A stretch of DNA of 64,000 nucleotides from Brachionus manjavacas (taxonomy: Eukaryota > Rotifera > Eurotatoria > Ploima > Brachionidae). Positions 6,201 through 50,586 of the stretch are shown piece by piece; the stretch's first letter is position 1; every line of letters begins with the position of its first letter. The stretch lies in NCBI GenBank assembly GCA_019054805.1, contig JAHQIY010000004.1, forward strand, positions 310,001 through 374,000, in the 5' to 3' direction. The notes beneath the pieces are model-generated. The model was not told where the DNA came from. It ran no database searches and was given only the letters and a program-made list of their open reading frames with translations. The position numbers were made by a program, and so were the translations under genes.

Positions 6201-8279
6201 CTGCGGAGCAATGCTATATCTAGCCTTGCTATGGTAGCTGTCTGATTTTAAAATATGTCTTTAAAAGATTATGTTAATAGGAAAAAATTAATTATTTTTG
6301 TTTCAAAAAGATATCTAATTTGTTTTTGAATTCATTCTTAGATTTTGCATTTACAATCACTATCGGTAACTCGTTCCACGCATTCATCATGAGTAATAAG
6401 TACCAAAAAGAAATCGAAAGATGGCTTTTCAGATGGGAAATGAAAATATCTATTGAAATTGAAGTCATGTTACATAATTTTTGTTAAAAAACTAAAATTA
6501 GAATCAATCTTGACCTTAACACTTGAACGCCCGGGGTTTTTTAACCCCTTTTTTATCTCAAAAAGTTAATAATTGCTTAAAAAAATAATATTTTTTGAAT
6601 TTATTTTTTCTAATTTGAAATTTAATTTTAATTGTGATTTTATTTTAAAATTATAAATTTTAAAAAATTACATTATAAAATAAAAAATATACATAAACAC
6701 CCGGAGGGAAGAAATTGCTATCTAACAAATTCTTCTTTTTTCAAATTTAAATTAAATTTTTTTTTAACTTTTTTTAACATTTTCCACAAAAATCAATAAA
6801 AATATACGCAAATTTGCGTTAAAAAATATAATTTTTTTTATTTTTAATCTTCTATTAATTTTGAAAAAAAAAAATAGGAAAAATTGCACAAATTTGGTTT
6901 TTACAAAATTTTACGTAAAAATCGGTTAGTTTGCTTGTTCATTTTAGCTATTTTACATAAAATTGCTTTATTTTGATAAATTCGCGTAAATTTTGGTAAA
7001 ACTACTGGAACAAATCAGTACTGTATTAAAATCTTAATTTTTTTAAGAAAACCTCAAAATTCTTCAATATTTTGGGCATTTTTATTTTTAAATGTTGAAA
7101 TTTTACCTTTTTTTGCGTAAAATAGGGTAAAATTCCAAATCCAGAACACAACTGTATATTGTTAAAGATGTTAAAAATCAACAATTATTAATAAACTATT
7201 TAAAAAGTTAACTTGTATTTATCATTCATTAACCCGCCTTCCAAATATCTTTTTGTTAATATTTTGAAACAACTGTGAAATTGAGAGTTGAATTTATTTT
7301 CTTTTTTCTTTTACATTAAATTCACTTTTATTCTCTTCTTTAAATTAACAAGGTATTAACCAGTCTTATAGATAGGGACACTAGTCTGTTGATTTACCTT
7401 ACAATTGTAAAAAAATTCAAAATTTTCGATTCAAATTTATATCTCTGAAAATATTAGTAATAAAAAAAGAGTTAATTTCTTTTTTTTCACAGAATTTTGT
7501 TACTTTTGAAACCCTAAATGGTTCCAAAGTTGTTTATTGGAAATTTTTATAAGAAAATTTTTCAGATTAAAGAATGAGGAGATTTGTTGAAAAAAAATTA
7601 CATTTAGAGTTTTGACAACGAGTTTTTTCGGAATCCAAGCATTCACTCGATACCCCACAGCTTTGATTGTAAGTTTTCTTTGGCATACACTTATTTCCGT
7701 CATAATAAAATCTGAAAAAATTATTATTTATTTAGCTTTCGAAAAACATTGAAAAAACCTTTCATAGTCTGAACACTTGCACATTTGAGATTGGCAAACA
7801 AAAGTGGATTGACATTCATCTCCATCACATGCTTCGTTGAATGCCTTTCTCAGGCTGCATCTATTTATTTTAGCATTCCAGTATCTATCATTTGAACAAG
7901 AACACTTAGAACCAATACCACATACAAGAAATTCGTCCTGTTTACAATGGTCATCTTGCCTACAAATTCCATCTAGTGAAGAAGCACTGTAGCATTTATC
8001 CAGGTAAAATTGATTCTCTGGACACAAGCAAGTACCTTCGATGCATTCGAGTCCAAGCTTGTTTTCACAAGATCGGGATGAACAGCTTTGATTGTACAAT
8101 CCTTTTGGTTGTGCTGTAAGAGCTATGCCAAGTGAGGCAGCCAAAATTGCTACAAAACCTGTGAACAAAATAGCGGCAGTAACCACGACCCATTTAGGAA
8201 AACTTATCTTTCCATTGTTTAATTGTTCAAGTTTAAGGGCAGCTTTGGATTTTTTGGGAGAATACTTTGGAAAATACAT
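286..8279 (-). CDS. Type II membrane protein with serial EB-like cysteine-rich modules and a C-terminal C-type-lectin-like domain (5 exons)
   Basis: I join five minus-strand exons: 8279-7759, 7711-7602, 5777-5088, 5020-4453 and 1306-286. All junctions are GT-AG and all phases agree (2, 1, 1, 2), giving 2910 coding bases, about 969 residues. Residues 1-29 are basic and cytoplasmic; about 30-54 form one hydrophobic anchor (rich in V, A, I, L) with no cleavable signal, so a type II topology is likely. The extracellular part repeats a pattern of CxxxxxC pairs followed by YWDGxKC-like and KK/KxxNxxC motifs, as in EB modules of invertebrate surface proteins. Residues from about 869 resemble a long-form C-type lectin domain: the CPEAAVFYGGECYFF hairpin, AEDYC, LAEI and a terminal VICVEDD. 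The usual third cysteine and the Ca-binding loop motifs are not visible, so sugar binding is doubtful. The two large introns (3.1 and 1.8 kb) carry TE debris, while the others are 47 and 67 bases. The split could instead be several genes, but the exact phase match argues for one. Ligand unknown. Confidence 0.82.
3330..3574 (+). pseudogene. pogo/Tigger-like DDE transposase fragment
   Basis: This lies inside the 3.1-kb intron (1307-4452), antisense to the host gene. One frame reads through motifs of the DDE_1 family: LIFDQATCHVI near 3400, then an in-frame TAA at about 3484, then TNLLQPANVSWMRPLKREY and a final RW before a stop. The third acidic catalytic residue region and the QP-[AD]-V motif are as in pogo-like transposases. 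It is short and carries a stop, so it is a dead relic. The rest of this intron shows no coding signal. Confidence 0.7.
4235..4283 (-). repeat. Dispersed TE end shared with 17343-17403
   Basis: The minus strand here reads TAGTTCTCTCAATAACTAC, then AGCCAAC and TAAATG. A diverged copy lies on the plus strand at 17343-17403. TAGTTCTC at the start would suit the end of an LTR or LINE, but I cannot define the other end. Confidence 0.35.
5871..6078. mobile_element. Short GC-richer MITE in intron 2 of the EB gene
   Basis: About 208 bases, clearly richer in G+C than the surroundings, bounded by imperfect inverted ends (GTGTTGGGATCCGT on the left; reverse complement of the right end GTGTTGGATACGGT). 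The interior has short inverted GGACCG/CGGTCC and GGCCAG/CTGGCC-like blocks. No target duplication is evident. It sits in the 1.8-kb intron 5778-7601. Confidence 0.5.
6880..7155. repeat. Degenerate copy of an ACGTAAA-rich fold-back MITE
   Basis: This part of intron 2 is filled with TTTTACGTAAA and GGTAAAA motifs. It ends with CCAAATCCAGAACACAACTG followed by TA, which resembles the right end of the intact elements at 29273-30402 and 32410-33545. The left end is not clear. Confidence 0.45.
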
Positions 8280-36094: not shown

Positions 36095-36644
36095 ATTGAT
36101 GAGGATTTGAGCTTTTAAAATAAAATAGACACTGCAAAAAAAATTTAAATTAGAATTTTGTTCCGTCTAATGAACAAGAATTTAAATACACAAAAAATTT
36201 AAAATTTTTTTTACTGTAGGCTTAACTATTCAAACATCAATTAAAAAGTGTACTAAATTGATAAATATCAAAAAGTGTTTTTTTAAATAGAATTCGTTAA
36301 TTATGATTCAACAAAATTAAAAAATATAAGACTGAAAATATTTTATTTTATTATTAGACTTTAACTTAATGATTATTTTGTAAGATGGATAGTAAAGAGA
36401 AAATTTTTGATACTGATGAAACAAAATTTATTTAGGGTTATTTTACACAGTTCTCGCACACATAAAAAAATAATTAAAATTAATATTCTTATAATTTATG
36501 TTTATGTTTAAAAAGATTCAAATAAACTTTTTTTAAAAAGAATTTTTTTGTAATTAATAACATAATTTAATTAATGATAGCATCTTTTTTAGTTATATTT
36601 TTAATATAAACTTTTTGACAACATAAAACGCTTATAAAAATTTA
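36095..36644. other. Intergenic, downstream of the hydrolase
   Basis: A+T-rich with no recognisable feature; TAAAATAAA-like signals near 36116-36124 could serve polyadenylation. Confidence 0.35.
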
Positions 36645-37981
36645 GTTATCACGATGTTAACATAACCGGTATGATACCAAATGATAACATATTATGTTAT
36701 CACCTGATAACACTATCGACTAGACCCGTGAATTTTAATTGAAGAAAATTATGGTTTAATTTTTTTTGTTTGAATTACAAAATGTATCTAATGTTGAAAT
36801 AACATTGAAAAAGTGCGATGTTTCAAAAAATTTTATTTAGTTTCAAATAAAAAAATAATTTAAAGTTAATATCGCAAGCATTTTCAGATTTGAAATTAAA
36901 CTCTTTAGTGAAATAGAATGACTTTAATTTTTATTTTTAAAAAAATATTGAAAATCCTTTTTTAAATTTTTAAATAATTCATTCATTTATTTTTTCCCGA
37001 GCAAATGCTCATTCAGACTGGTAACATATGAAAAAACTAAAAATTTAGTTAAGTAATATAAAATTAACTAAATAAAAAGAATAAAAATGAGCATTCAATA
37101 ATTCATTTTGATTAAATTTTATATTCAATCATTAAAAAACTGGATCTAGTCGGTTAGGTGAACCAAAGTTCACTTATTATCCGAAATAATTTGTTCTCAA
37201 GTTTTGTGAACTATTGGTTCACCCGATTTTTTGTTCAAAATAGAATTATACGAAATATTTTCAGATTATGCGAATAAATTGAATAAAGCTAAAAATTAAA
37301 TAGAATGCCTTATTCTCGAAACTGATATAAAAATTAGTTAATAGTTTTTTAGGTTATTTTTTTTTTGGATGAGCTTTAGAAATAGCATTTGCTATGATCT
37401 GGTTGACTTGGTATTACTCTTTCCATAATCCCAAATACCTAAATGCGCTCTCTTCTTAAATGTTTGACTTTCAGCATAAATGATAAAAATTAAAAAAAAT
37501 TAAAATAAATTGTTCACCCTTTAAAAGTTTGACTTTGAGAAATATATACATCTATTTCGCAAATTTTCCTACTCCGCCCAACTTTAAATTTTCAATGTAA
37601 TTATCTTTTCTATCTTATTTTTATCATTACATTAGCTTTTTAAATTAAATGAACTAATAGTTCATAAACCTGAGAACAAGAATCGTCCCAGTAACAGGTG
37701 AATCATAGTTTACCTATCGGACTAGACACAAAAAACTTTGTTTTCTTCTTATAAAATTTTGACATAAGTGATAATTTACTTTCGTTTGGTCGTATATATT
37801 TTTTGAAACCAGATTTATTTATGTTTCATTTAAGTATACTTTTTAGACTTTTTACTTTAAGCACTTAGGTCAATACATTCCTAAAAATGAGATACCAAAT
37901 TTTGGTTGATTCATGACTTGGTCAAACCAAAAGTGATACCCACAAATTTAATTTATATATTTAAAGCTTATTTAGTCAACT
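36645..37981 (+). repeat. Repeat unit copy A (interrupted at its 3' side by the LINE)
   Basis: This unit starts GTTATCACGATGTTAACATA and matches 47533-48870 almost base for base. Its last 888 bases (37094-37981) are repeated on the other side of the LINE at 43649-44536. Inside the unit, TCTAGTCGGTTAGGTGAACC (about 37146) and the inverted TCTAGTCCGATAGGTAAAC (about 37730) look like the two ends of an inner TIR element. A 19-base palindrome, GATAACATA-T-TATGTTATC, sits at about 36682. There is no coding capacity. Confidence 0.85.
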
Positions 37982-38183
37982 TTCAATTTCAATGTGCCCA
38001 GAGCAGACATTAGTCTTTCATGCGAACATGTCGGACACACTCATTTATTTAAGAAATAAAAAAGTGAAATTTTAATATAAATTGAATGTTTTGATTTATA
38101 AAATTTAATAGTTTAATAAGTAAAATAAAATAAAATAAGAAGAAAGAAAAGAAGAGAGAAGGATGATTTAGTTTTATTTTAAG

Positions 38184-41100
38184 TTATTTTTTGTATTTTA
38201 CATATTTAAGAAAATTATAGATGTAATCTATGTCAAATTTTGGAAAAATTTTAATAAACTCAATAAAGTGTAGATTTACATTATTAATTTTTCTTTGTCT
38301 GAATTGAGAAAAATTAAAATCTAGATCATTCTGTGTAAAAGAGTTGATAAATTTAGAAAAAAAGAAAGAAAATGTTAATTCACCAAAAGAATTAAATCCT
38401 AAACTTCTTGGTGTAAAAAATTTATTGCTGTTTCTTAAATTATATGGTTTGTTAAAAGATTCATTTGTAATTAGTTGAGTTTTAAGTGGAAGAGGCGATT
38501 CTGGGTTCTTTAAAATCTTATAAGAAAAACAGCAAAGCTTAATGATCAGCCTATGTTGAAAACCGTATAGACCTAGAATTTCAAGATTATTATTAACTGT
38601 ATTGAAATCATTAGAATAATTAACTTGGGCTTTGAAGTGAATCAATTTAAAAAGTGAAATATAATATGAGTTGGATAGAGATTGAATAGCTGGTTTGGGA
38701 AAATAGATGGCAAGTGATAAACAATAATCAAAGTGTGGCAAGATGAACGTTTTAAAGAATTGTATTTTGACTGGCTTTGAAAGAAAGAATAATTGCTTTA
38801 TTGAATTTAGCTTTTTATTAATAGTAGCTTTTAGATTGCTAACGTGACTATTAAAATTTAATTTATTATCTATTATAATACCTAAAAGCTTGAATTGAGG
38901 TACAACCTCAATTTTAAATGATTTAAAAGAAAATGATGCTGGTACTTCTAGGTTTTTTTGTTATGGATAATCATTATTTTAGTTTTATCCCAGTTAATAT
39001 CAAGACGATTTAATGAGCACCATTTGTACAGTAGTTCTAAACAATTTTTGAAGTTTTCTGTTAAATCCTTTAGATTTGAACTGCAGAAAATGATAGTGGT
39101 ATCATCAGCAAATATCTTACAGTTAATGTTATGATTTTTAAGAAAAAAAGCTAGGTCATTTATGAAAATTAAGAAAAAGAGAGGACCTAACACATTTCCC
39201 TGTGGAACTCCAAGGTCGATTTTAGAGAATTTAGAAAGGGTGCCACCGAAAGAAACCGCTTGTTTTCTTCCAAAGAAATAATTTTTGATAAGATCAAGAG
39301 CGTTTTCATTAAGCCCAATTCTCTTTAATTTGCAAAGTAAGAGATTTGGATCTACTAAGTCGAAAGCCTTGCGGAAGTCAATAAACAAGAGAAGTGTAAT
39401 AAATTTTTTATTGCGTGCTGCGTTAATTTCTGAAATAAGTTCATGTAAGGCTGTTTCACAAGAGTGATCTTCGCTGAATCCATACTGGCATGGAAATAGA
39501 ATTTTATTTGTGGTCAAGTAAAGAGATAATTGTGATGCTATTATCTTTTCAAAAATTTTTGATATTACAGGTAGAACAGAAATTCCTCTGTAGTTGTTAA
39601 TGATTTCGATTGGACCTTTATTTTTATAGATAGCTGTAACAATTGCGCATTTCCACTCACCAGGGACTCTGCAATAAGTGATACAATCATTGATAAGGTC
39701 AGTTAATACAGGACCAAGAATTACTGCTGAATCTTTAAAGATTTTGACTGAAATATCTGAGATACCAGGACCATTGTTAGGATCCAAATTACTTATTATT
39801 TTTACAACAGACTCGACCGATATTAACTGAAAATCAAAAGTTTTTCTTTTAATTTACTAAAGGGACACATGTAAGACAGTTCATTAAAGGTTTCATTTAT
39901 GGAAGCTATACAGGTCTTTTTATCAAATACTGAATCTGATTTTGTATCGGTGAAAAAATTATTCAAAAGCTTGCTAATTTCTGAGGCCTCAGAAGCGGAG
40001 CTCTTACCGTTGATAATGAAATTAGGAATGGTACTGTTTTGTTTGTCAGACTTTAATTTTATTGTTGATCTATAGAATTCATAAAATTTTTTTGAATTTT
40101 GAAAATCATTTAGTTTTTTATCCTTAAAATACAGAATTAATTTTTGTTCGGTCATAGTTTTTATTCGTTTTTTTGTTTCTACATATGAAAAATAAAAAGA
40201 GCGATCTTGTGTGTTTTTCCACGACTTATAAAAACCATCCCGTATTTTAGAAAGAGTATTAATTTCTTTGTCTGACCATGGGCTTAAAGAATTTTTATTA
40301 TCAATTTTAGCTTTTTTATTTGGTGCAATTGAATCTATTATACTTAAAATCGAGTTTTTTAGGGAGTTCCATCTATCATTTGGTTGATCAGATGTAGATA
40401 AAGAAAGAAAAGATCGAGATTTGAAGTCATGGTGAGATATTTTCTCTGCGATTTTAGATAGATTATTCTCAGATAAATTTCTAACAGATTTATAAAAGGA
40501 GGTACTTTTAATTGAGGAAATATCTAGTGTAATTACTAACATTCTATGATCGCTTATAGAGTTATCAATGGATGAAGTCGATTTTATTAGATTTTGGTTA
40601 TGCAAAACGAGATCTATTTGAGTAGCACTTGTTATGAATTTATTTTCTTTCTGGAAAAATTTGGTTGTGACTCTAGTTGGACCTAAGACGAAATTTTTTA
40701 GTCCATAACTTGAAAGGAAACATTTTAAGATTTCATTTTTTCTTAAAGAATCTATATTAAAATCTCCAATAAGAAAAAGGGGATCTTCGATGTTTATGGT
40801 TAAGAGGAAATTTCCAACTTTATTAAGATAATCACTATCATTAATATATCTGTTAGGGGCCTTATAACATGAGAGAAAATTAAAGCATTTTTTTTTAAAT
40901 AAATTTGTAAATAAATACTTTCAATTGATGTTAAAATTTTTGTTTTCCTTATAGTGTATTCGCATCGAATATAGACAAGAACACCTCCGCCTTCTTCATT
41001 TTCTCTATCGAAACGTATAATATTGTAGAAGGAATGTTTAAGAGAGGATAAAGGATGGATGAAATCATTAAGAAATGTCTCATTTAGCATCACTATATCA

Positions 41101-41270
41101 AAAATTTTTGAGTTAAGGACTGAGAATATTTGGTCTTTTTTATTAAAAAATCTGTTAACATTGAAATGGAGAATAGAAAAATTACTTGACGCTTTAGTTA
41201 CTTCTATAAGATCTTTAACAAAGTCGGAACTAATAAATTCTGAAGATTGGTTTAATTTATCTCTATCTAG
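38184..41270 (-). pseudogene. LINE AP endonuclease and reverse transcriptase (frameshifted)
   Basis: The frame continues directly from the UGA (followed by CUAG) with SNFSILHFNVNRFF, MLNETFL and GGGVLVYI, the start of an AP endonuclease. The first ATG (41090) is already inside that domain. GDFNID (about 40760) and SDHRMLVIT (about 40560) complete the nuclease. The RT follows, with GISVLPVISKIFEKI, FIDFRKAFDLVD, GVPQGNVLGPLFF and FADDTTI (about 39105). A C-terminal domain ends at 38184. Three breaks all fall in A runs: near 40895, near 39840 (five A where the sister copy has six) and near 38955 (seven A, six in the sister). They may be decay or assembly errors. Confidence 0.85.
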
Positions 41271-42773
41271 TCATGAAGAACAAGAGCTAGAAAATAAATT
41301 ATCAATTCCTTTTATAGAGAGAAGATTTTTTGAGAAAATTTCATTAAAAATAAGCTTACGAAAAGCGGCTACTTGATCCTGTTTAAAGGTCAATTGGGCA
41401 TTAACGATAAAATATCGAAAAAAAAGACAAATGAAAATACCGCAGTCATAGAGGTTTGTCTGAATTGGAAAAGAAACATTTGAGTAACACCAGTTATCTA
41501 TGGTCAGGTTAAGATCCTTAAGTATTAATGATAAAAATCTGTTTACCTCCTGATAATAAATGTTGCTGTTTGTACCTAGAGAGTCATATAAGATTATTGT
41601 TGATTTTGAGAAATCCAGAATTATTAGTCGCCAGTGATTCATAAAACAGGTAGGAATTATAAAAAATTTATAATTACTTACTTTATTGAGCTTTAATCTG
41701 CATTTTCTATTATTGATATATAAAGAGAAAAGAGATGCAGAAAATGAAAAAAAACTTTTATCCGAAGAAAAAAAAGAAATAATAAGGTTAAAATAAAAAT
41801 CTATTATGTTGTCATTTACCCATTTTGTGTTGTTAAGCGTTAATAAATCATGGAACGTTAAATTTGTGTTGAATCCTGATACTGCTAAGTTATAGTCATC
41901 TTCCCAATTTGTTTTTGGTTCCAAAATTGCATTTTGATCTATCGTACAACCAGCGTACACATTCCGGGCTCCTGCGATTGTGTGCTGAGATTTTTTGGTG
42001 TGGCTCAGGTTGATTTCCGATTCTGATGCACAAGTTGTTATTGAATCTGTTGATGAGTACTGAGAGTCTACAACTATAGTGGTTGCTCCGGGTCGAATAG
42101 ATACAGCTGAGTCTGTCAAGGCCTTGTTGACTGCTTCCTTGGTTTCTCCTGTTCTACTGGAGTCCGCTATGTCTGACAAAGATTTGTCGACTGCTGCTTC
42201 AGCCATTCCAGAGAATCTGGAGTAGGCTGATTCAGTCGAACCCTTGTTGACTGCGGTTGTAATGTGGTTGTTTTGATAAACTGGTTCGGTCCGGTATAGT
42301 TGTATCAGATCGTTAGTCTTACTGGTCTTTGAGTCTGTTTTTGCAGTCGGGTTCTGGTTGACTGTAGTTTCGGTCTCTCTGGGAAGACCGGTGCCGGTTG
42401 ATTTGGTCAAAGCCTTGTTTAATGTAACTTTGGTTGCTCCGAGGCTGTTATGATCAGCTGAAATGGAATTTTTCTGGTTGATTGTAGCTCCGTCCGCTTT
42501 AGGACTACTCAAGTCAGCTGATTTGGTTAGGACTTTGCTGACTGATGCTTTGAATATTCCGTGATGACTCGAGACAGCTGAATTGGACAAAGAATCATTG
42601 TTTACAGATTTTGATTGAATTAGCCTTGTTTGATTAGGTTGTGGTGGATTAGTGAAGGTTTTGATTGGTTTTGAGTATTGTTGCTGTGTAGTTCTAAAAT
42701 TTTGATTAAAGATGGAGAAATCTGAGTTTTGAGGAATTGTGGATTTAAGTTGAATGGAGTTGTTGCTTAGTTG
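41271..42773 (-). CDS. Ulp1/SENP-like cysteine protease region of the LINE, in frame after the ORF1 UAG
   Basis: Exactly in the ORF1 frame, 500 codons stay open from the codon after UAG to a UGA at 41273-41271. The first in-frame ATG is at 42206, 189 codons in, so independent initiation at its start is unlikely. The first part is Gln/Asn/Pro-rich. Then come several degenerate repeats of about 24 residues (VNKALTDSAVSIRPGAT type). The last 200 residues form a C48 peptidase domain: KWVNDNIIDFYF, then His in MNHWRLIILD (41636), Asp in ILYDSLG (41585), Gln in PIQTN (41462) and Cys in LYDCGIFIC (41444). All catalytic positions are present and correctly ordered. Ulp1-type proteases cut after Gly-Gly of SUMO-like proteins; here it could process the element's own polyprotein or act on host SUMO conjugates (inference). 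Confidence 0.85.
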   Translation of the reverse strand, partial: QLSNNSIQLKSTIPQNSDFSIFNQNFRTTQQQYSKPIKTFTNPPQPNQTRLIQSKSVNNDSLSNSAVSSHHGIFKASVSKVLTKSADLSSPKADGATINQKNSISADHNSLGATKVTLNKALTKSTGTGLPRETETTVNQNPTAKTDSKTSKTNDLIQLYRTEPVYQNNHITTAVNKGSTESAYSRFSGMAEAAVDKSLSDIADSSRTGETKEAVNKALTDSAVSIRPGATTIVVDSQYSSTDSITTCASESEINLSHTKKSQHTIAGARNVYAGCTIDQNAILEPKTNWEDDYNLAVSGFNTNLTFHDLLTLNNTKWVNDNIIDFYFNLIISFFSSDKSFFSFSASLFSLYINNRKCRLKLNKVSNYKFFIIPTCFMNHWRLIILDFSKSTIILYDSLGTNSNIYYQEVNRFLSLILKDLNLTIDNWCYSNVSFPIQTNLYDCGIFICLFFRYFIVNAQLTFKQDQVAAFRKLIFNEIFSKNLLSIKGIDNLFSSSCSS

Positions 42774-43607
42774 CTAATGTCGGAATTCTGGGTGCAACAC
42801 CCACACAAGTGTTTCATTTCTAATTCCCCAGAACCATCTTTTGCTGTTTTCGTCTTTCTTGTATCTGAGTGTTTTTCCATTGCCATCAGTTTCAATGTGG
42901 GGTAAGGCGTTGTTTTGCTCTTTCTTTTTGTCCCTGAGAGCCTTGTCAAGTTTGCATTCGGCTAGGGTTTTATCTTTGTTTAGAAAAATACCTTTGAATT
43001 GTGTGGATTTGTACAGTTCTCGTGATCGAGATAAAGCCTTGTTTCTGCTTTCCGAGTCTTGCAATTCTACCACCAATATCGAATTTTTAACTGAATTGGT
43101 TTCCTGGGCAGTTCTTGGTTTGATTCTGTTGATGCGTATACATTTTTCTTCAGCAATGCCGACTTTGTCTAAGATTTGGTGTACCTTTTCTTTGTCATGT
43201 TTTTTCTTTTCGTTTGATATTTCACTGATACATTCATCTAATCCACAAATAATGAGATTATTCTCAATTTTATTTCTTGTTTTGAATTCTTTTGCTACTT
43301 TTGATATAATTACGAGATCAGATTCATTGTTCTGGTTGCTATTATCGACCAAACTTGCTAGTGTGCATACTGGAATTGTGTGGGCTGTTTGTTGAGGACC
43401 TTTTTCAAGTTCAGAAATTTTTTTATGTTGTTCATTAATCGTCAGTTCTAAACTTTGATTTTTTGATTCGAGGGTGCTGACTCGAGCTTGAAGAGATCTA
43501 AAGGCCGAAACCAAATCAACAAGGTACTCGCTTATCTTACCAGGTCCCACTCCGAAATTGCCCTGACCAAGTCCAGGCCATTCTTTGAGGAGTTCGTTAC
43601 TATTCAT
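42774..43607 (-). CDS. LINE ORF1 protein (coiled coil plus RRM-like domain)
   Basis: A true ATG at 43607 opens 277 codons. Residues about 35-75 form a heptad-rich coiled coil (SLQARVSTLESKNQSLELTI region). From about 115 the protein matches the RNA-binding fold of LINE ORF1 proteins: NNLIICGLDE, KVGIAEEKCIRINRI, SILVVELQDSESRNKAL and IFLNKDKTLAE. It would bind the element RNA as a trimer or oligomer. The stop is UAG and is followed by CAACUA; the same frame stays open for a further 500 codons, so this may be the N-terminal product of a longer readthrough protein. Confidence 0.85.
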   Translation of the reverse strand: MNSNELLKEWPGLGQGNFGVGPGKISEYLVDLVSAFRSLQARVSTLESKNQSLELTINEQHKKISELEKGPQQTAHTIPVCTLASLVDNSNQNNESDLVIISKVAKEFKTRNKIENNLIICGLDECISEISNEKKKHDKEKVHQILDKVGIAEEKCIRINRIKPRTAQETNSVKNSILVVELQDSESRNKALSRSRELYKSTQFKGIFLNKDKTLAECKLDKALRDKKKEQNNALPHIETDGNGKTLRYKKDENSKRWFWGIRNETLVWVLHPEFRH

Positions 43608-43648
43608 TGAAGTTTTTTAAAAATTTCTTTTTTTCAATTTTTTTTGTT

Positions 43649-44866
43649 TTCAATAATTCATTTTGATTAAATTTTATATTCAATCATTAAAAAACTGGAT
43701 CTAGTCGGTTAGGTGAACCATAGTTCACTTATTATCCGAAATAATTTGTTCTCAAGTTTTGTGAACTATTGGTTCACCCGATTTTTTTGTTCAAAATAGA
43801 ATTATACGAAATATTTTCAGATTATGCGAATAAATTGAATAAAGCTAAAAATTAAATAGAATGCCTTATTCTCGAAACTGATATAAAAATTAGTTAATAG
43901 TTTTTTAGGTTATTTTTTTTTTGGATGAGCTTTAGAAATAGCATTTGCTATGATCTGGTTGACTTGGTATTACTCTTTCCATAATCCCAAATACCTAAAT
44001 GCGCTCTCTTCTTAAATGTTTGACTTTCAGCATAAATGATAAAAATTAAAAAAAATTAAAATAAATTGTTCACCCTTTAAAAGTTTGACTTTGAGAAATA
44101 TATACATCTATTTCGCAAATTTTCCTACTCCGCCCAACTTTAAATTTTCAATGTAATTATCTTTTCTATTTTATTTTTATCATTACATTAGCTTTTTAAA
44201 TTAAATGAACTAATAGTTCATAAACCTGAGAACAAGAATCGTCCCAGTAACAGGTGAATCATAGTTTACCTATCGGACTAGACACAAAAAACTTTGTTTT
44301 CTTCTTATAAAATTTTGACATAAGTGATAATTTACTTTCGTTTGGTCGTATATATTTTTTGAAACCAGATTTATTTATGTTTCATTTAAGTATACTTTTT
44401 AGACTTTTTACTTTAAGCACTTAGGTCAATACATTCCTAAAAATGAGATACCAAATTTTGGTTGATTCATGACTTGGTCAAACCAAAAGTGATACCCACA
44501 AATTTAATTTATATATTTAAAGCTTATTTAGTCAACTATGATTATGTAAGGTTTTATTTGAAAACAATGTTCTTTTAAAAAGTTATAGCAAAAAGAATCA
44601 GAAAACAGAATTTTTTTGGAATTTTACAAAGTGGTCATTTTTTGTTGGTTTTTAAAAATATATTTTTCGAATATCTTTAATATTAACTTACAGCAATGGA
44701 AACTTGGAAACTCTTGGAATTTGTTGGAAACTGTTGGAAACTCTTGGAAGCTCTTTTTTTTTCATTACGAAAAAATAGAAAATGATAGAGAAATGATCTA
44801 TGGCTCATTTTAATCAGCATAAAATTTCACATCAGAATATATTAATATCAACAATTGATAAAATTC
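43649..44866 (+). repeat. Repeat unit copy B (3' part, after the LINE)
   Basis: It starts with the same 888 bases that end copy A, then continues beyond the LINE insertion point (TCAACTATGATTATG) to TTGATAAAATTC. Copy C has the same continuation to 49170. B has extra TTGGAAACT repeats at 44700-44750 (TTGGAAACTCTTGGAATT type), fewer in C. Confidence 0.85.
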
Positions 44867-45270
44867 AAACCTTCGAGGACATTTTTAGTCAAAATTCGGT
44901 CAAGGTGTTTTGGGTTAACACAAACGGTCATTTATTATTGAACACCCGTTATGTTCAAAACCTAGCCCACTTCCAAATACAGAATTATATTTGTTTCTAG
45001 CTTTTATTGTTTTAGGCGTTGAAAGACCTTCCTTTTTTATATTGTGAGAGCACATTAAAGTTAATGTATATGTTTAAACCAACACAAAGCTTAATATTTA
45101 TTTTTATATTTCTTCGTGTTTCATGCTTTTCTTTATGTTTCATAAGCTTATTTAACTTGATCACTAAGAGTGGATACTTTCAAATACGATTTTATAATTA
45201 ATAAAAGAAGAAAACAATTTTATTTAAACCCGGAACACTATTTATCATATAAAATTTACATATATTCTGA
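44867..45270. other. Spacer between repeat B and the inverted LINE
   Basis: About 400 bases unique in this window. No coding signal; short open frames read as chance. Confidence 0.4.
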
Positions 45271-47532
45271 AAGCGATCACAGAATGTTAGTAATTACACT
45301 AGATATTTCCTCAATTAAAAGTACCTCCTTTTATAAATCTGTTAGAAATTTATCTGAGAATAATCTATCTAAAATCGCAGAGAAAATATCTCACCATGAC
45401 TTCAAATCTCGATCTTTTCTTTCTTTATCTACATCTGATCAACCAAATGATAGATGGAACTCCCTAAAAAACTCGATTTTAAGTATAATAGATTCAATTG
45501 CACCAAATAAAAAAGCTAAAATTGATAATAAAAATTCTTTAAGCCCATGGTCAGACAAAGAAATTAATACTCTTTCTAAAATACGGGATGGTTTTTATAA
45601 GTCGTGGAAAAACACACAAGATCGCTCTTTTTATTTTTCATATGTAGAAACAAAAAAACGAATAAAAACTATGACCGAACAAAAATTAATTCTGTATTTT
45701 AAGGATAAAAAACTAAATGATTTTCAAAATTCAAAAAAATTTTATGAATTCTATAGATCAACAATAAAATTAAAGTCTGACAAACAAAACAGTACCATTC
45801 CTAATTTCATTATCAACGGTAAGAGCTCCGCTTCTGAGGCCTCAGAAATTAGCAAGCTTTTGAATAATTTTTTCACCGATACAAAATCAGATTCAGTATT
45901 TGATAAAAAGACCTGTATAGCTTCCATAAATGAAACCTTTAATGAACTGTCTTACATGTGTCCCTTTAGTAAATTAAAAGAAAAAACTTTTGATTTTCAG
46001 TTAATATCGGTCGAGTCTGTTGTAAAAATAATAAGTAATTTGGATCCTAACAATGGTCCTGGTATCTCAGATATTTCAGTCAAAATCTTTAAAGATTCAG
46101 CAGTAATTCTTGGTCCTGTATTAACTGACCTTATCAATGATTGTATCACTTATTGCAGAGTCCCTGGTGAGTGGAAATGCGCAATTGTTACAGCTATCTA
46201 TAAAAATAAAGGTCCAATCGAAATCATTAACAACTACAGAGGAATTTCTGTTCTACCTGTAATATCAAAAATTTTTGAAAAGATAATAGCATCACAATTA
46301 TCTCTTTACTTGACCACAAATAAAATTCTATTTCCATGCCAGTATGGATTCAGCGAAGATCACTCTTGTGAAACAGCCTTACATGAACTTATTTCAGAAA
46401 TTAACGCAGCACGCAATAAAAAATTTATTACACTTCTCTTGTTTATTGACTTCCGCAAGGCTTTCGACTTAGTAGATCCAAATCTCTTACTTTGCAAATT
46501 AAAGAGAATTGGGCTTAATGAAAACGCTCTTGATCTTATCAAAAATTATTTCTTTGGAAGAAAACAAGCGGTTTCTTTCGGTGGCACCCTTTCTAAATTC
46601 TCTAAAATCGACCTTGGAGTTCCACAGGGAAATGTGTTAGGTCCTCTCTTTTTCTTAATTTTCATAAATGACCTAGCTTTTTTCTTAAAAATCATAACAT
46701 TAACTGTAAGATATTTGCTGATGATACCACTATCATTTTCTGCAGTTCAAATCTAAAGGATTTAACAGAAAACTTCAAAAATTGTTTAGAACTACTGTAC
46801 AAATGGTGCTCATTAAATCGTCTTGATATTAACTGGGATAAAACTAAAATAATGATTATCCATAACAAAAAACCTAGAAGTACCAGCATCATTTTCTTTT
46901 AAATCATTTAAAATTGAGGTTGTACCTCAATTCAAGCTTTTAGGTATTATAATAGATAATAAATTAAATTTTAATAGTCACGTTAGCAATCTAAAAGCTA
47001 CTATTAATAAAAAGCTAAATTCAATAAAGCAATTATTCTTTCTTTCAAAGCCAGTCAAAATACAATTCTTTAAAACGTTCATCTTGCCACACTTTGATTA
47101 TTGTTTATCACTTGCCATCTATTTTCCCAAACCAGCTATTCAATCTCTATCCAACTCATATTATATTTCACTTTTTAAATTGATTCACTTCAAAGCCCAA
47201 GTTAATTATTCTAATGATTTCAATACAGTTAATAATAATCTTGAAATTCTAGGTCTATACGGTTTTCAACATAGGCTGATCATTAAGCTTTGCTGTTTTT
47301 CTTATAAGATTTTAAAGAACCCAGAATCGCCTCTTCCACTTAAAACTCAACTAATTACAAATGAATCTTTTAACAAACCATATAATTTAAGAAACAGCAA
47401 TAAATTTTTTACACCAAGAAGTTTAGGATTTAATTCTTTTGGTGAATTAACATTTTCTTTCTTTTTTTCTAAATTTATCAACTCTTTTACACATGAAAGA
47501 CTAATGTCTGCTCTGGGCACATTGAAATTGAA
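45271..47532 (+). mobile_element. 5'-truncated second copy of the same LINE, opposite strand
   Basis: It starts within the endonuclease at GATCACAGAATG (SDHRM) and is almost identical to 40556-37982 of the minus copy. One frame runs 45170-46756 through the RT. A T run just before FADD (about 46684) has six T where the minus copy has seven, which shifts the frame and kills the catalytic box. Near its 3' end about 310 bases are missing relative to the minus copy (38024-38333 there), removing the last 50 codons. Its final ATTGAAATTGAA abuts repeat C directly. Confidence 0.9.
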
Positions 47533-49170
47533 GTTATCACGATGTTAACATAACCGGTATGGTACCAAATGATAACATATTATGTTATCACCTGATAACA
47601 CTATCGACTAGACCCGTGAATTTTAATTGAAGAAAATTATGGTTTAATTTTTTTTGTTTGAATTACAAAATGTATCTAATGTTGAAATAACATTGAAAAA
47701 GTGCGATGTTTCAAAAAATTTTATTTAGTTTCAAATAAAAAAATAATTTAAAGTTAATATCGCAAGCATTTTCAGATTTGAAATTAAACTCTAATAATAG
47801 TGAAATAGAATGACTTTAATTTTTATTTTTAAAAAAATATTGAAAATCCTTTTTTAAATTTTTAAATAATTCATTCATTTATTTTTTCCCGAGCAAATGC
47901 TCATTCAGACTGGTAACATATGAAAAAACTAAAAATTTAGTTAAGTAATATAAAATTAACTAAATAAAAAGAATAAAAATGAGCATTCAATAATTCATTT
48001 TGATTAAATTTTATATTCAATCATTAAAAAACTGGATCTAGTCGGTTAGGTGAACCATAGTTCACTTATTATCCGAAATAATTTGTTCTCAAGTTTTGTG
48101 AACTATTGGTTCACCCGATTTTTTTGTTCAAAATAGAATTATACGAAATATTTTCAGATTATGCGAATAAATTGAATAAAGCTAAAAATTAAATAGAATG
48201 CCTTATTCTCGAAACTGATATAAAAATTAGTTAATAGTTTTTTAGGTTATTTTTTTTTTGGATGAGCTTTAGAAATAGCATTTGCTATGATCTGGTTGAC
48301 TTGGTATTACTCTTTCCATAATCCCAAATACCTAAATGCGCTCTCTTCTTAAATGTTTGACTTTCAGCATAAATGATAAAAATTAAAAAAAATTAAAATA
48401 AATTGTTCACCCTTTAAAAGTTTGACTTTGAGAAATATATACATCTATTTCGCAAATTTTCCTACTCCGCCCAACTTTAAATTTTCAATGTAATTATCTT
48501 TTCTATCTTATTTTTATCATTACATTAGCTTTTTAAATTAAATGAACTAATAGTTCATAAACCTGAGAACAAGAATCGTCCCAGTAACAGGTGAATCATA
48601 GTTTACCTATCGGACTAGACACAAAAAACTTTGTTTTCTTCTTATAAAATTTTGACATAAGTGATAATTTACTTTCGTTTGGTCGTATATATTTTTTGAA
48701 ACCAGATTTATTTATGTTTCATTTAAGTATACTTTTAGACTTTTTACTTTAAGCACTTAGGTCAATACATTCCTAAAAATGAGATACCAAATTTTGGTTG
48801 ATTCATGACTTGGTCAAACCAAAAGTGATACCCACAAATTTAATTTATATATTTAAAGCTTATTTAGTCAACTATGATTATGTAAGGTTTTATTTGAAAA
48901 CAATGTTCTTTTAAAAAGTTATAGCAAAAAGAATCAGAAAACAGAATTTTTTTGGAATTTTACAAAGTGGTCATTTTTTGTTGGTTTTTAAAAATATATT
49001 TTTCGAATATCTTTAATATTAACTTACAGCAATGGAAACTTGGAAACTCTTGGAAGCTCTTTTTTTCATCACGAAAAAATAGAAAATGATAGAGAAATGA
49101 TCTATGGCTCATTTTAATCAGCATAAAATTTCACATCAGAATATATTAATATCAACAATTGATAAAATTC
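47533..49170 (+). repeat. Repeat unit copy C (uninterrupted)
   Basis: An intact version of the 1.64-kb unit: it equals copy A followed by the tail of copy B, with a handful of single-base and small indel differences. It acts as an empty-site reference for the LINE insertion in A/B. Non-coding. Confidence 0.85.
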
Positions 49171-50586
49171 GAAATGAAGTTAAAGCATGCAGAAAAATGT
49201 AAGCTATGGTTCTATGATAAATACTTATTTTAATGGAAGGTCAAATGAAAAATATCAAGAACATTTAAAATTTAAATACTAAAACAATTTAAAATTCAAC
49301 ATAATCATCAATTGATTTTTGATTTCCAATAGGGAAGCCAAAATAAATCAAACTTTGTACTTCTGAAATCATAGATCCATTTTATATAAAATCGGTTTTT
49401 TAATTTTTTTCAAAAAAGATCGAGTCTGAATTAGAGGTATTAAATTAAATCTTCAAGTCCTTAGCATATTTTTCACAATTTCTGAACAACATCTTAATTC
49501 GTTTTTTAGACTACATCATCGCAATAAGCAAGAAAGAACAAATTTGACTTAACAATCCCTGTCCCAACTTCCAAATCAGTAAAAAAAAAATTCCTTTTCT
49601 TTCAATTGGAAAATCAAATGGTCATTTATGTAAATTGTCACTGGAAAAATAAAAACAAAATTTTCTTAATATAAATTTTCAAAAAAATCTTGATTTTTAA
49701 TTTTGCTTTGTAAAATTTTTTTCATGCATTTGTGATTTTATTAAATAAAAAATCGGACAATTTTTGGTTGATTTTGACAATTTTTTTATTATTTTATGCT
49801 AGTTAGATTTAAAAAATGGTGAAACAAGCTGGCAACTTGAAGTTCATGATCATAAACAAATGATCAAAATTTTATTGATTTAAATCTTAATAAAAATGAT
49901 AAAATTAGATTGTCTTTAATTTTTTTTTAAATTAAACATATATTTTAATTTAAAAAAAAAAAAAAAAATTTCTCTAATTGACCATTAATTTAAAATTTTT
50001 TATTTTAAAACTCTAAAGACAAATTTAAAATCAACATTTAGGTATCAAAATTATGGCTCAAATAGACACTTTAAATGATATTTTAATATCAATTAAATAA
50101 TATTACGGCGAAACTAATTAGGAATTAAGAACAAAATTGCCAATGAGAGAAAAGTCTGCAAGTCGACATAAAAAACGATGATAAATCGATGAAAATTGAT
50201 TAAATTAACTTTTCTCAATACAAATACTTGAGAAAATTTTGAAAGTAAACATGGCTTTTACAAGTTCAATCAGATTTTAAACCGGTTATTTGAGTGGGGA
50301 ACATAAAAATTTTTTAGAAAATTTCTTTATTTTTTATTTTAAATAAAACTTAATTTTTATAGAATGTAAAATAATTCAATATTTAAATAAATTATCCATT
50401 TTTTCTTTTTATTATTGGTGTTTTACAAACATTTACGTAATTTTGGCCGAAAAGTCAATATAATTTCTTTTTCACTGAATTCTGCAAAAATTATTAAATT
50501 TAGTCCTGTTTATCACATAAATTATATTTTATTTATTTTTTTAATTTTTTTTTACATCACCTTTAAGTCGTTCATTAAAATAATTA
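49171..50586. other. Intergenic, nothing recognised
   Basis: A+T-rich with a long A run near 49955. No coding frame with conserved motifs and no repeat could be supported. Confidence 0.5.

Follow-up and report, generated by a model that had tools for sequence, protein, structure and literature searches.

Candidate Readthrough Stop Codons Between the Parts of a Protease-Bearing LINE in the Rotifer Brachionus manjavacas

Introduction

UAG followed by CAR-YYA (type I) is the tobamovirus-like form of leaky stop codon, and UGA followed by CUA is the alphavirus-like form. Both contexts are described as leaky in the sections of PMC11166343 on which we draw, where UGA-CUA alone is credited with ~1.5–2.9% (PMC11166343). 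Here, we describe a long interspersed nuclear element (LINE) of the rotifer Brachionus manjavacas, located in a 64,000-nucleotide stretch of assembly GCA_019054805.1 (contig JAHQIY010000004.1, positions 310,001 to 374,000 of the forward strand; "the window" below), in which one stop codon of each form interrupts a single minus-strand frame. Comparison with its relatives makes it probable that the endonuclease and reverse transcriptase (EN-RT) is made as a readthrough extension, past UGA-CUAG and, in the family of the window copy, past UAG-CAACUA as well. How LINEs obtain EN-RT from a two-part mRNA is a long-standing question, to which reinitiation is the main published answer in the partial record available to us.

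The closest described systems each share some of these features. Viral leaky stops, such as the ilarvirus coat protein readthrough (CP-RT) as far as the excerpted account goes, are alike in their contexts, their common frame, the lack of a conserved AUG and the comparative form of the argument (PMC11166343), whereas the rotifer case lies in a LINE, has up to two serial sites, shows no coding bias next to the stop and is predicted from sequence comparison. Tca2 of Candida, in the portion of its description used here, likewise has a UGA between gag and pol, but is a long terminal repeat (LTR) retrotransposon with a single stop and a potential pseudoknot past the UGA (PMC2194720). NeSL and Utopia-1_TSP are LINEs that, according to the sections consulted, likewise carry an N-terminal Ulp1-type cysteine protease ahead of the reverse transcriptase (RT); Utopia has a restriction-like endonuclease downstream of the RT (PMC4640811), whereas the rotifer LINE has an apurinic/apyrimidinic (AP)-like EN between protease and RT, and its parts, unlike those of NeSL and Utopia, are separated by stops. 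Past the RT of the rotifer element there is a 258-aa C-terminal open reading frame (ORF) without a Pfam match, and no restriction-like endonuclease was recognized there. NeSL, too, has a restriction-like endonuclease after the RT. SART1 and L1 likewise obtain EN-RT from a two-ORF mRNA and are described, in the part of the source used, as restarting translation (PMC5972666), whereas the rotifer LINE stays in frame and mostly lacks AUGs. A LINE with readthrough between its parts was not found in the consulted portions of the open literature, including PMC5009743, PMC4640811, PMC5972666, PMC2861651, PMC11166343, PMC3846280, and PMC6555955, a body outside which most subscription papers lie.

Layout and State of the Element

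The original prediction, made from the letters of the window, described one minus-strand frame running from ATG 43607 to about 40900 and broken by two stops, UAG-CAACUA and UGA-CUAG. Sequence and ORF reading confirm the frame, its start and both stops; as for its end, EN homology does depart from the frame near 40,900, but the frame itself stays open to 40800. The parts are as follows.

37980..43641, minus strand: whole LINE, ~5.66 kb, ends taken from the copies on contigs C28 and C2 (matches 43640/43641 to 37984/37977)
42774..43607, minus strand: ORF1, 277 codons, from ATG 43607 to UAG 42776-42774
42768..42776, minus strand: first stop, UAG-CAA-CUA (fits CAR-YYA), identical in the C28 and C2 copies
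41274..42773, minus strand: middle ORF, 500 codons in the frame of ORF1, a Ser/Thr/Asn-rich linker with the protease after it
41337..41804, minus strand: Ulp1/SENP-type cysteine protease domain (Peptidase_C48, PF02902, E 4.5e-13, residues 324-479)
41267..41273, minus strand: second stop, UGA-CUAG, with UGA at 41273-41271
40890..41270, minus strand: N-terminal part of EN in the ORF1/protease frame, first 60 codons without AUG
39823..40920, minus strand: C-terminal part of EN and linker, in a different frame (frame change in the window copy)
38948..39853, minus strand: reverse transcriptase (RVT_1, PF00078, E 2.6e-33), beyond a further frame change
38184..38960, minus strand: C-terminal part of the RT ORF, 258 aa, no Pfam match

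A Pfam scan of ORF1 gave no family above cut-off; a RWFWGIRN block at its C-terminus resembles the ORF1 ends of two related lineages (B and I, below). The protease has catalytic His, Asp, Gln, and Cys residues that are invariant across five aligned rows and match the positions of SENP1 (6nnq; E 1.5e-32). EN of the window matches Exo_endo_phos (PF03372) in two broken pieces (E 2e-4 and 0.046), the piece after the UGA scoring 21.5 bits, below the curated cut-off of 24.5; the EN of a relative (L051) matches the same family with E 2e-10, and in a copy on contig C13 the EN frame is open over 917 aa. No LTRs are present, and the window, C28 and C2 copies have the same ends in different flanks, as expected of a non-LTR element. 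With its AP-like EN and RT, the element is classed from these matches as an AP endonuclease (APE)-type LINE of a Brachionus-like rotifer. Because of frame changes in EN-RT (near 40,900, 39,850, and 38,950), the window copy is inactive, and the readthrough idea is therefore testable in relatives only.

Relatives were sought in the 114-Mb genome (61 contigs, the window lying on contig C4) with the window DNA, three proteases and one EN as queries. The copies were sorted into lineages A (that of the window), A' (83–89% in DNA) and B to I, and lineage counts treat A and A' as one. The codon closing the protease ORF was taken as the second stop, and reading was continued past it. The copy lists are lower bounds, some listed places not having been retrieved. 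Twenty-six copies were counted; these include duplicates of one another on C17 (a pair), C23 (a pair) and C2 (five copies, of lineage E). Outside this count stand L012/L008, where similarity stops at the stop codon (UGA-CAG there); L052 of lineage I (UGA-UAA, with several further in-frame stops ahead of EN); L055, L070, and L075, with an unreadable junction; and L016, L018, L019, L024, L029, L032, and L034, whose matches end short of the junction. Neither the decayed relative L075 nor L076-L078 yielded a protease/EN junction. No EN adjoins the C48 gene found on contig C7 (L058) or the C48-like ORFs L072-L074, and the DNA searched outside this genome gave no confirmed relative locus in viral contigs or in bacterial/archaeal genome contigs. 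Related EN ORFs at L056, L057, L059, and L060 have no protease in the 1–2 kb upstream, and the open stretch ahead of EN in this lineage has no AUG. Lineages A and A' are ~88% alike from window position 41939, just ahead of the protease domain, onward (L004, L005, L012); ahead of it, ORF1 has no DNA match and the linker only short repeat-like matches, as if a 5' module had been swapped.

Conservation of the Second Stop

The protease/EN junction is UGA in 24 of the 26 readable copies. By lineage, UGA is present in 8/8 readable ones, with C at +4 in all eight and CUA in six, the other two having CAA; with the decayed lineage I included, the counts become 9/9 for UGA, 8/9 for C and 6/9 for CUA. 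UGA-CUAG is the context in five copies of lineage A, in G, in six copies of E (one more has UGA-CUGG) and in L023, a decayed 70% relative; UGA-CUAA occurs in B and in L004 of A', UGA-CUAU in C (2 copies) and H, and UGA-CAAU in D (2 copies) and F. Over ~85 residues, EN identity is 91% between A and A', 56–72% within {B,D,E} and {C,F} and 33–51% otherwise, G and H included (30–67% among A-F over 111 codons). Because the EN proteins have diverged this far, a neutral hexamer would be expected to have been lost.

Under the composition of the window, a random stop would read UGA-C with p 0.040, UGA-CUA with p 0.0025 and UAG-CAA with p 0.0041. The chance of about 1 in 131,000 originally given for the two contexts together rests on equal base frequencies and is replaced by these values. 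Taking the eight lineages as independent gives 6e-12 for UGA-C in 8/8 and 7e-15 for UGA-CUA in at least six of eight, which are not real probabilities, as the lineages are related. Where Leu follows the UGA, it is encoded by CUA in 6/6 lineages, while CUA makes up 46 of 315 Leu codons in the ORFs of A-F (p ~1e-5 if independent, 6e-5 with the UUA of A' as a seventh, 0.003 for three deep groups). As these six lineages use CUA for the Leu, apart from UUA in the A' copies L005 and L006 and CUG in one E copy, the nucleotides, and not the residue alone, have been kept. Conservation is stronger evidence than the chance calculation. The comparison of copies proposed at the outset thus came out in favor of the second stop: three near-full copies (window, C28, C2; ~99%) keep both stops with their contexts and UGA-C is found in 8/8 lineages, but the first stop is not clade-wide.

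The protease is also represented among deposited proteins, where a search gave seven C48 matches (P0003 to P0009). P0003 of Brachionus plicatilis, deposited as "Sentrin-specific protease", matches 97% of the lineage B protease ORF at 96% identity and terminates exactly at the UGA; the entry probably represents a transposon protein taken for a host gene. Of the Brachionus calyciflorus matches, P0004, P0005, and P0007 end soon past the domain and P0006 is shorter, while P0008 resembles a host SENP.

The First Stop

In family A, UAG-CAA-CUA stands in 3/3 copies and, as predicted, is followed by 189 codons without an in-frame AUG. Lineage I (L052) has UAG-CAA-UCA, lineage B UAG-CAA-CGA, in which YYA is not matched, and A' (L004, L005, L012) UGA-CAU-UUG, with 86–108 codons free of AUG. 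The type I site UAG-CAR-YYA is thus found in the window, C28 and C2 copies and in lineage I, and not in B or A'. In the 100 codons past the first stop, the three frames hold 0/5/9 stops in A, 0/5/8 in B and 0/7/6 in L004; frame 0 has one stop each in L005 and L012, at different places, and two in L052. Judging by these copies, the first stop comes and goes and is of the putatively leaky kind wherever it is shared (4/4 families: A, B, I, A'). The first stops of F (L051, UAA-ACA, a single copy), G and H were left outside this judgement. In C, D, and E, ORF1 and the protease have tandem repeats of ~28 to 45 residues between them, whose sequences differ by lineage (L031, L067+L035, L040, L041, L042-L050).

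Frame and Constraint After UGA

Between the protease stop and the EN block, the seven rows with an unbroken frame (A, A', B, C, D, E, F; 202 codons) contain no stop in frame 0, 24 in +1 and 25 in +2. L004, a near-duplicate, and L042, without an EN block, were not added to this test. An in-frame AUG between UGA and EN is absent in 6/7 rows, the sole exception being lineage D. The prediction that EN has no AUG until 60 codons past the UGA also holds, the first M being residue 61, within EN (copy L022). The shared open frame argues against internal initiation, because internal initiation needs no ORF that is open right up to the stop. Between A and A', the ratio of nonsynonymous to synonymous rates (dN/dS) is 0.22 over the last 200 protease codons and 0.10 over EN codons 60-199, so both downstream parts are in use. 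The stretch next to the UGA is probably a weakly constrained spacer.

Weighing the Explanations

Several observations count against readthrough. At the second stop, the tandem pair L005 and L006 of A' has UGA-UUAA, with UUA in place of CUA, and the decayed A' copies L007 (CGA-CUAG) and L028 (UUA-CUA, closely preceded by UAA) have sense codons there; sense codons in other copies had been named as a refuting outcome, but are confined to these two of the 26. In the decayed lineage I, the protease ORF ends in UGA-UAA, with further in-frame stops ahead of EN. The counts are not independent, as the lineages have a common ancestry and several of the copies arose by tandem or segmental duplication. 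The broken-frame rows L041, G (L053), and H (L054) enter the count of stops and contexts but not the frame test, and leaving them out favors that test. Lineage B has an AUG as the 10th codon past its UAG, and lineage D an in-frame AUG as the 12th codon past its UGA. No stop between ORF1 and protease is common to the copies of C, D, or E: one copy of C is interrupted by a stop within the repeats, while the other lacks one there but changes frame ahead of the protease; the two copies of D have one stop each, at differing positions; and in L048 of E the end of ORF1 continues into the start of the protease. The synonymous-biased change expected around the stops failed to appear near the UGA. Codons 1-25 past it carry 2.5 synonymous and 9.5 replacement changes between A and A' (dN/dS 1.0), and over codons 1-59 the ratio is 0.63 in frame 0 and 0.91 and 0.20 in the control frames, on a small number of changes, so that frame 0 is not singled out. 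A 3' stem-loop boosts efficiency at some UGA-CUA readthrough sites; no stimulatory 3' RNA structure was found here in 80- and 150-nt folds of nine sequences (18 folds, z -2.05 to +1.34).

Among the alternatives, termination and reinitiation, in which each stop closes an ordinary ORF and the next restarts nearby as with the UAAUG of SART1 or in L1, is improbable, if less so than the others. It could draw on the AUG of lineage B, which has a good context and at which the B. plicatilis deposit starts the protease, on the AUG of lineage D, and on the AUGA in which an AUG overlaps the UGA of A, L005, C, E, and F. Moreover, a further protein search, capped at 7999 candidates, gave at least three matches, one of which (P0010, an EN protein of an ENA record) has its predicted start at an M 29 residues ahead of the ILHLN block. 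The AUGA start, however, does not share the frame of EN, reading from it ends after three codons in A, and it is absent from L004, B, and D, so it is not a SART1-type overlap opening the next ORF. The long AUG-free stretches past the first stop of A and A' and in six of the seven UGA-EN intervals speak against restarting, which would also leave the kept UGA-CUA and the common frame of the unbroken rows unexplained. Slightly less probable still is that EN-RT arises from a non-AUG codon, an internal ribosome entry site (IRES) or a separate transcript, with the shared frame inherited by chance. The initiation of L1 ORF2 is called unconventional in the part of the source available (PMC5972666), and the EN lineage without a protease likewise lacks an AUG ahead of EN, but such a start would neither hold frame 0 open to the protease stop in 7/7 unbroken rows nor preserve CUA.

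Decoding of the UGA as selenocysteine, or loss of the stop through splicing or editing, is very unlikely. It would suit a protease terminator that in intact rows is UGA only, never UAA or UAG, but an Rfam scan of 36500-49500 gave no family at gathering score, the selenocysteine insertion sequence (SECIS) included, A, B, and I have UAG at the first site, and the residues flanking the UGA are not conserved as those of a selenocysteine site would be. Least credible is the view that the stops are ordinary pseudogene mutations of dead copies. Copies do carry other lesions or truncations, with the EN-RT part of L033 broken by two nonsense codons and single stops in L031, L040, and L041 that are absent from sister copies; these lesions, however, are copy-specific or known from one copy, whereas UGA stands at one place in eight lineages, and this cross-lineage conservation contradicts the pseudogene view.

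Readthrough at the UGA is thus well supported by the comparison, and readthrough at the UAG supported, though not clade-wide. The interpretation given in the original prediction is likewise supported, and its three-product polyprotein would follow by inference. Most ribosomes would halt at the UAG and release the ORF1 protein; some would pass UAG-CAACUA and add the Ulp1/SENP-like protease, and fewer would pass UGA-CUAG and add EN-RT. The predicted products, in falling amounts, are ORF1, ORF1-protease, and ORF1-protease-EN-RT. The protease may serve in polyprotein processing or in the removal of a SUMO-like tag. Because the two sites are serial and without 3' structure, EN-RT may reach perhaps a thousandth of ORF1. 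LINEs need little ORF2, which a low predicted level of EN-RT fits.

Flanking Direct Repeats

All six insertions of which both flanks were read lie in long direct repeats (0.7–1.9 kb, or tandem units of 7–9 kb). Those of the window, together with an inverted fragment, are listed here.

43652..44540, minus strand: direct repeat on the 5' side, 889 bp
37097..37981, minus strand: direct repeat on the 3' side, 99.7% identical to the 5' copy
47989..48876, minus strand: third copy of the repeat in the window, 99.8%
45271..47493, plus strand: piece of the EN-RT part of this LINE in inverted orientation (99.8% identity), with one of the three repeats on either side

The C28 copy has flank repeats of ~1.72 kb (99.1%), closely preceded by the 3' end of a further element copy, the C2 copy ~1.9 kb (99.3%) and the lineage B copy on C8 698 bp (98.7%). 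On C17, element and flank form a tandem array with units of ~7.24 kb and a repeat of at least 1.38 kb, and on C23 one with units of 9.2–9.4 kb, whose limits lie beyond the stretch examined. The loci concerned are L002/L061/L063/L064, L003/L062/L065/L066, L033/L068/L069, L079-L081 on C17 and L082-L084 on C23. The flank repeats of the window, C28, C2, and C8 differ in length; only that of the window was sought elsewhere. Some 690 bp of the window flank (43660-44346) is a dispersed repeat, found in at least 37 places beyond the three in the window at 83–92% (40 of 1031 candidates scored).

The flank repeats have diverged by 0.3–1.3%, which resembles the ~1.1% between element copies. They fit long target duplications made at insertion, with later unequal exchange; tandem duplication after insertion is a possible alternative. 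R9, a LINE of bdelloid rotifers, is likewise noted for an "exceptionally long" target duplication, in a title cited in PMC2861651. The rotifer elements thus share a long flanking duplication, which here measures 0.7–1.9 kb, at varied targets and partly in tandem arrays. That of R9 is reportedly 126 bp long.

Implications

We put forward tentatively, at a little short of even confidence, that a clade of rotifer LINEs has converted the usual two-ORF layout to a graded polyprotein like that of viruses, with one leaky stop or two serial ones and an enzyme resembling a SUMO protease between them, combined with kilobase-scale target duplications that seed tandem arrays. If the flank repeats were made at insertion, their length would put models of second-strand cutting to the test. 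A clade with leaky stops would be another answer to how LINEs express EN-RT and would add an animal LINE to the settings in which viral-type leaky stops are used; why an Ulp1-type protease precedes the nuclease would then become a question in its own right.

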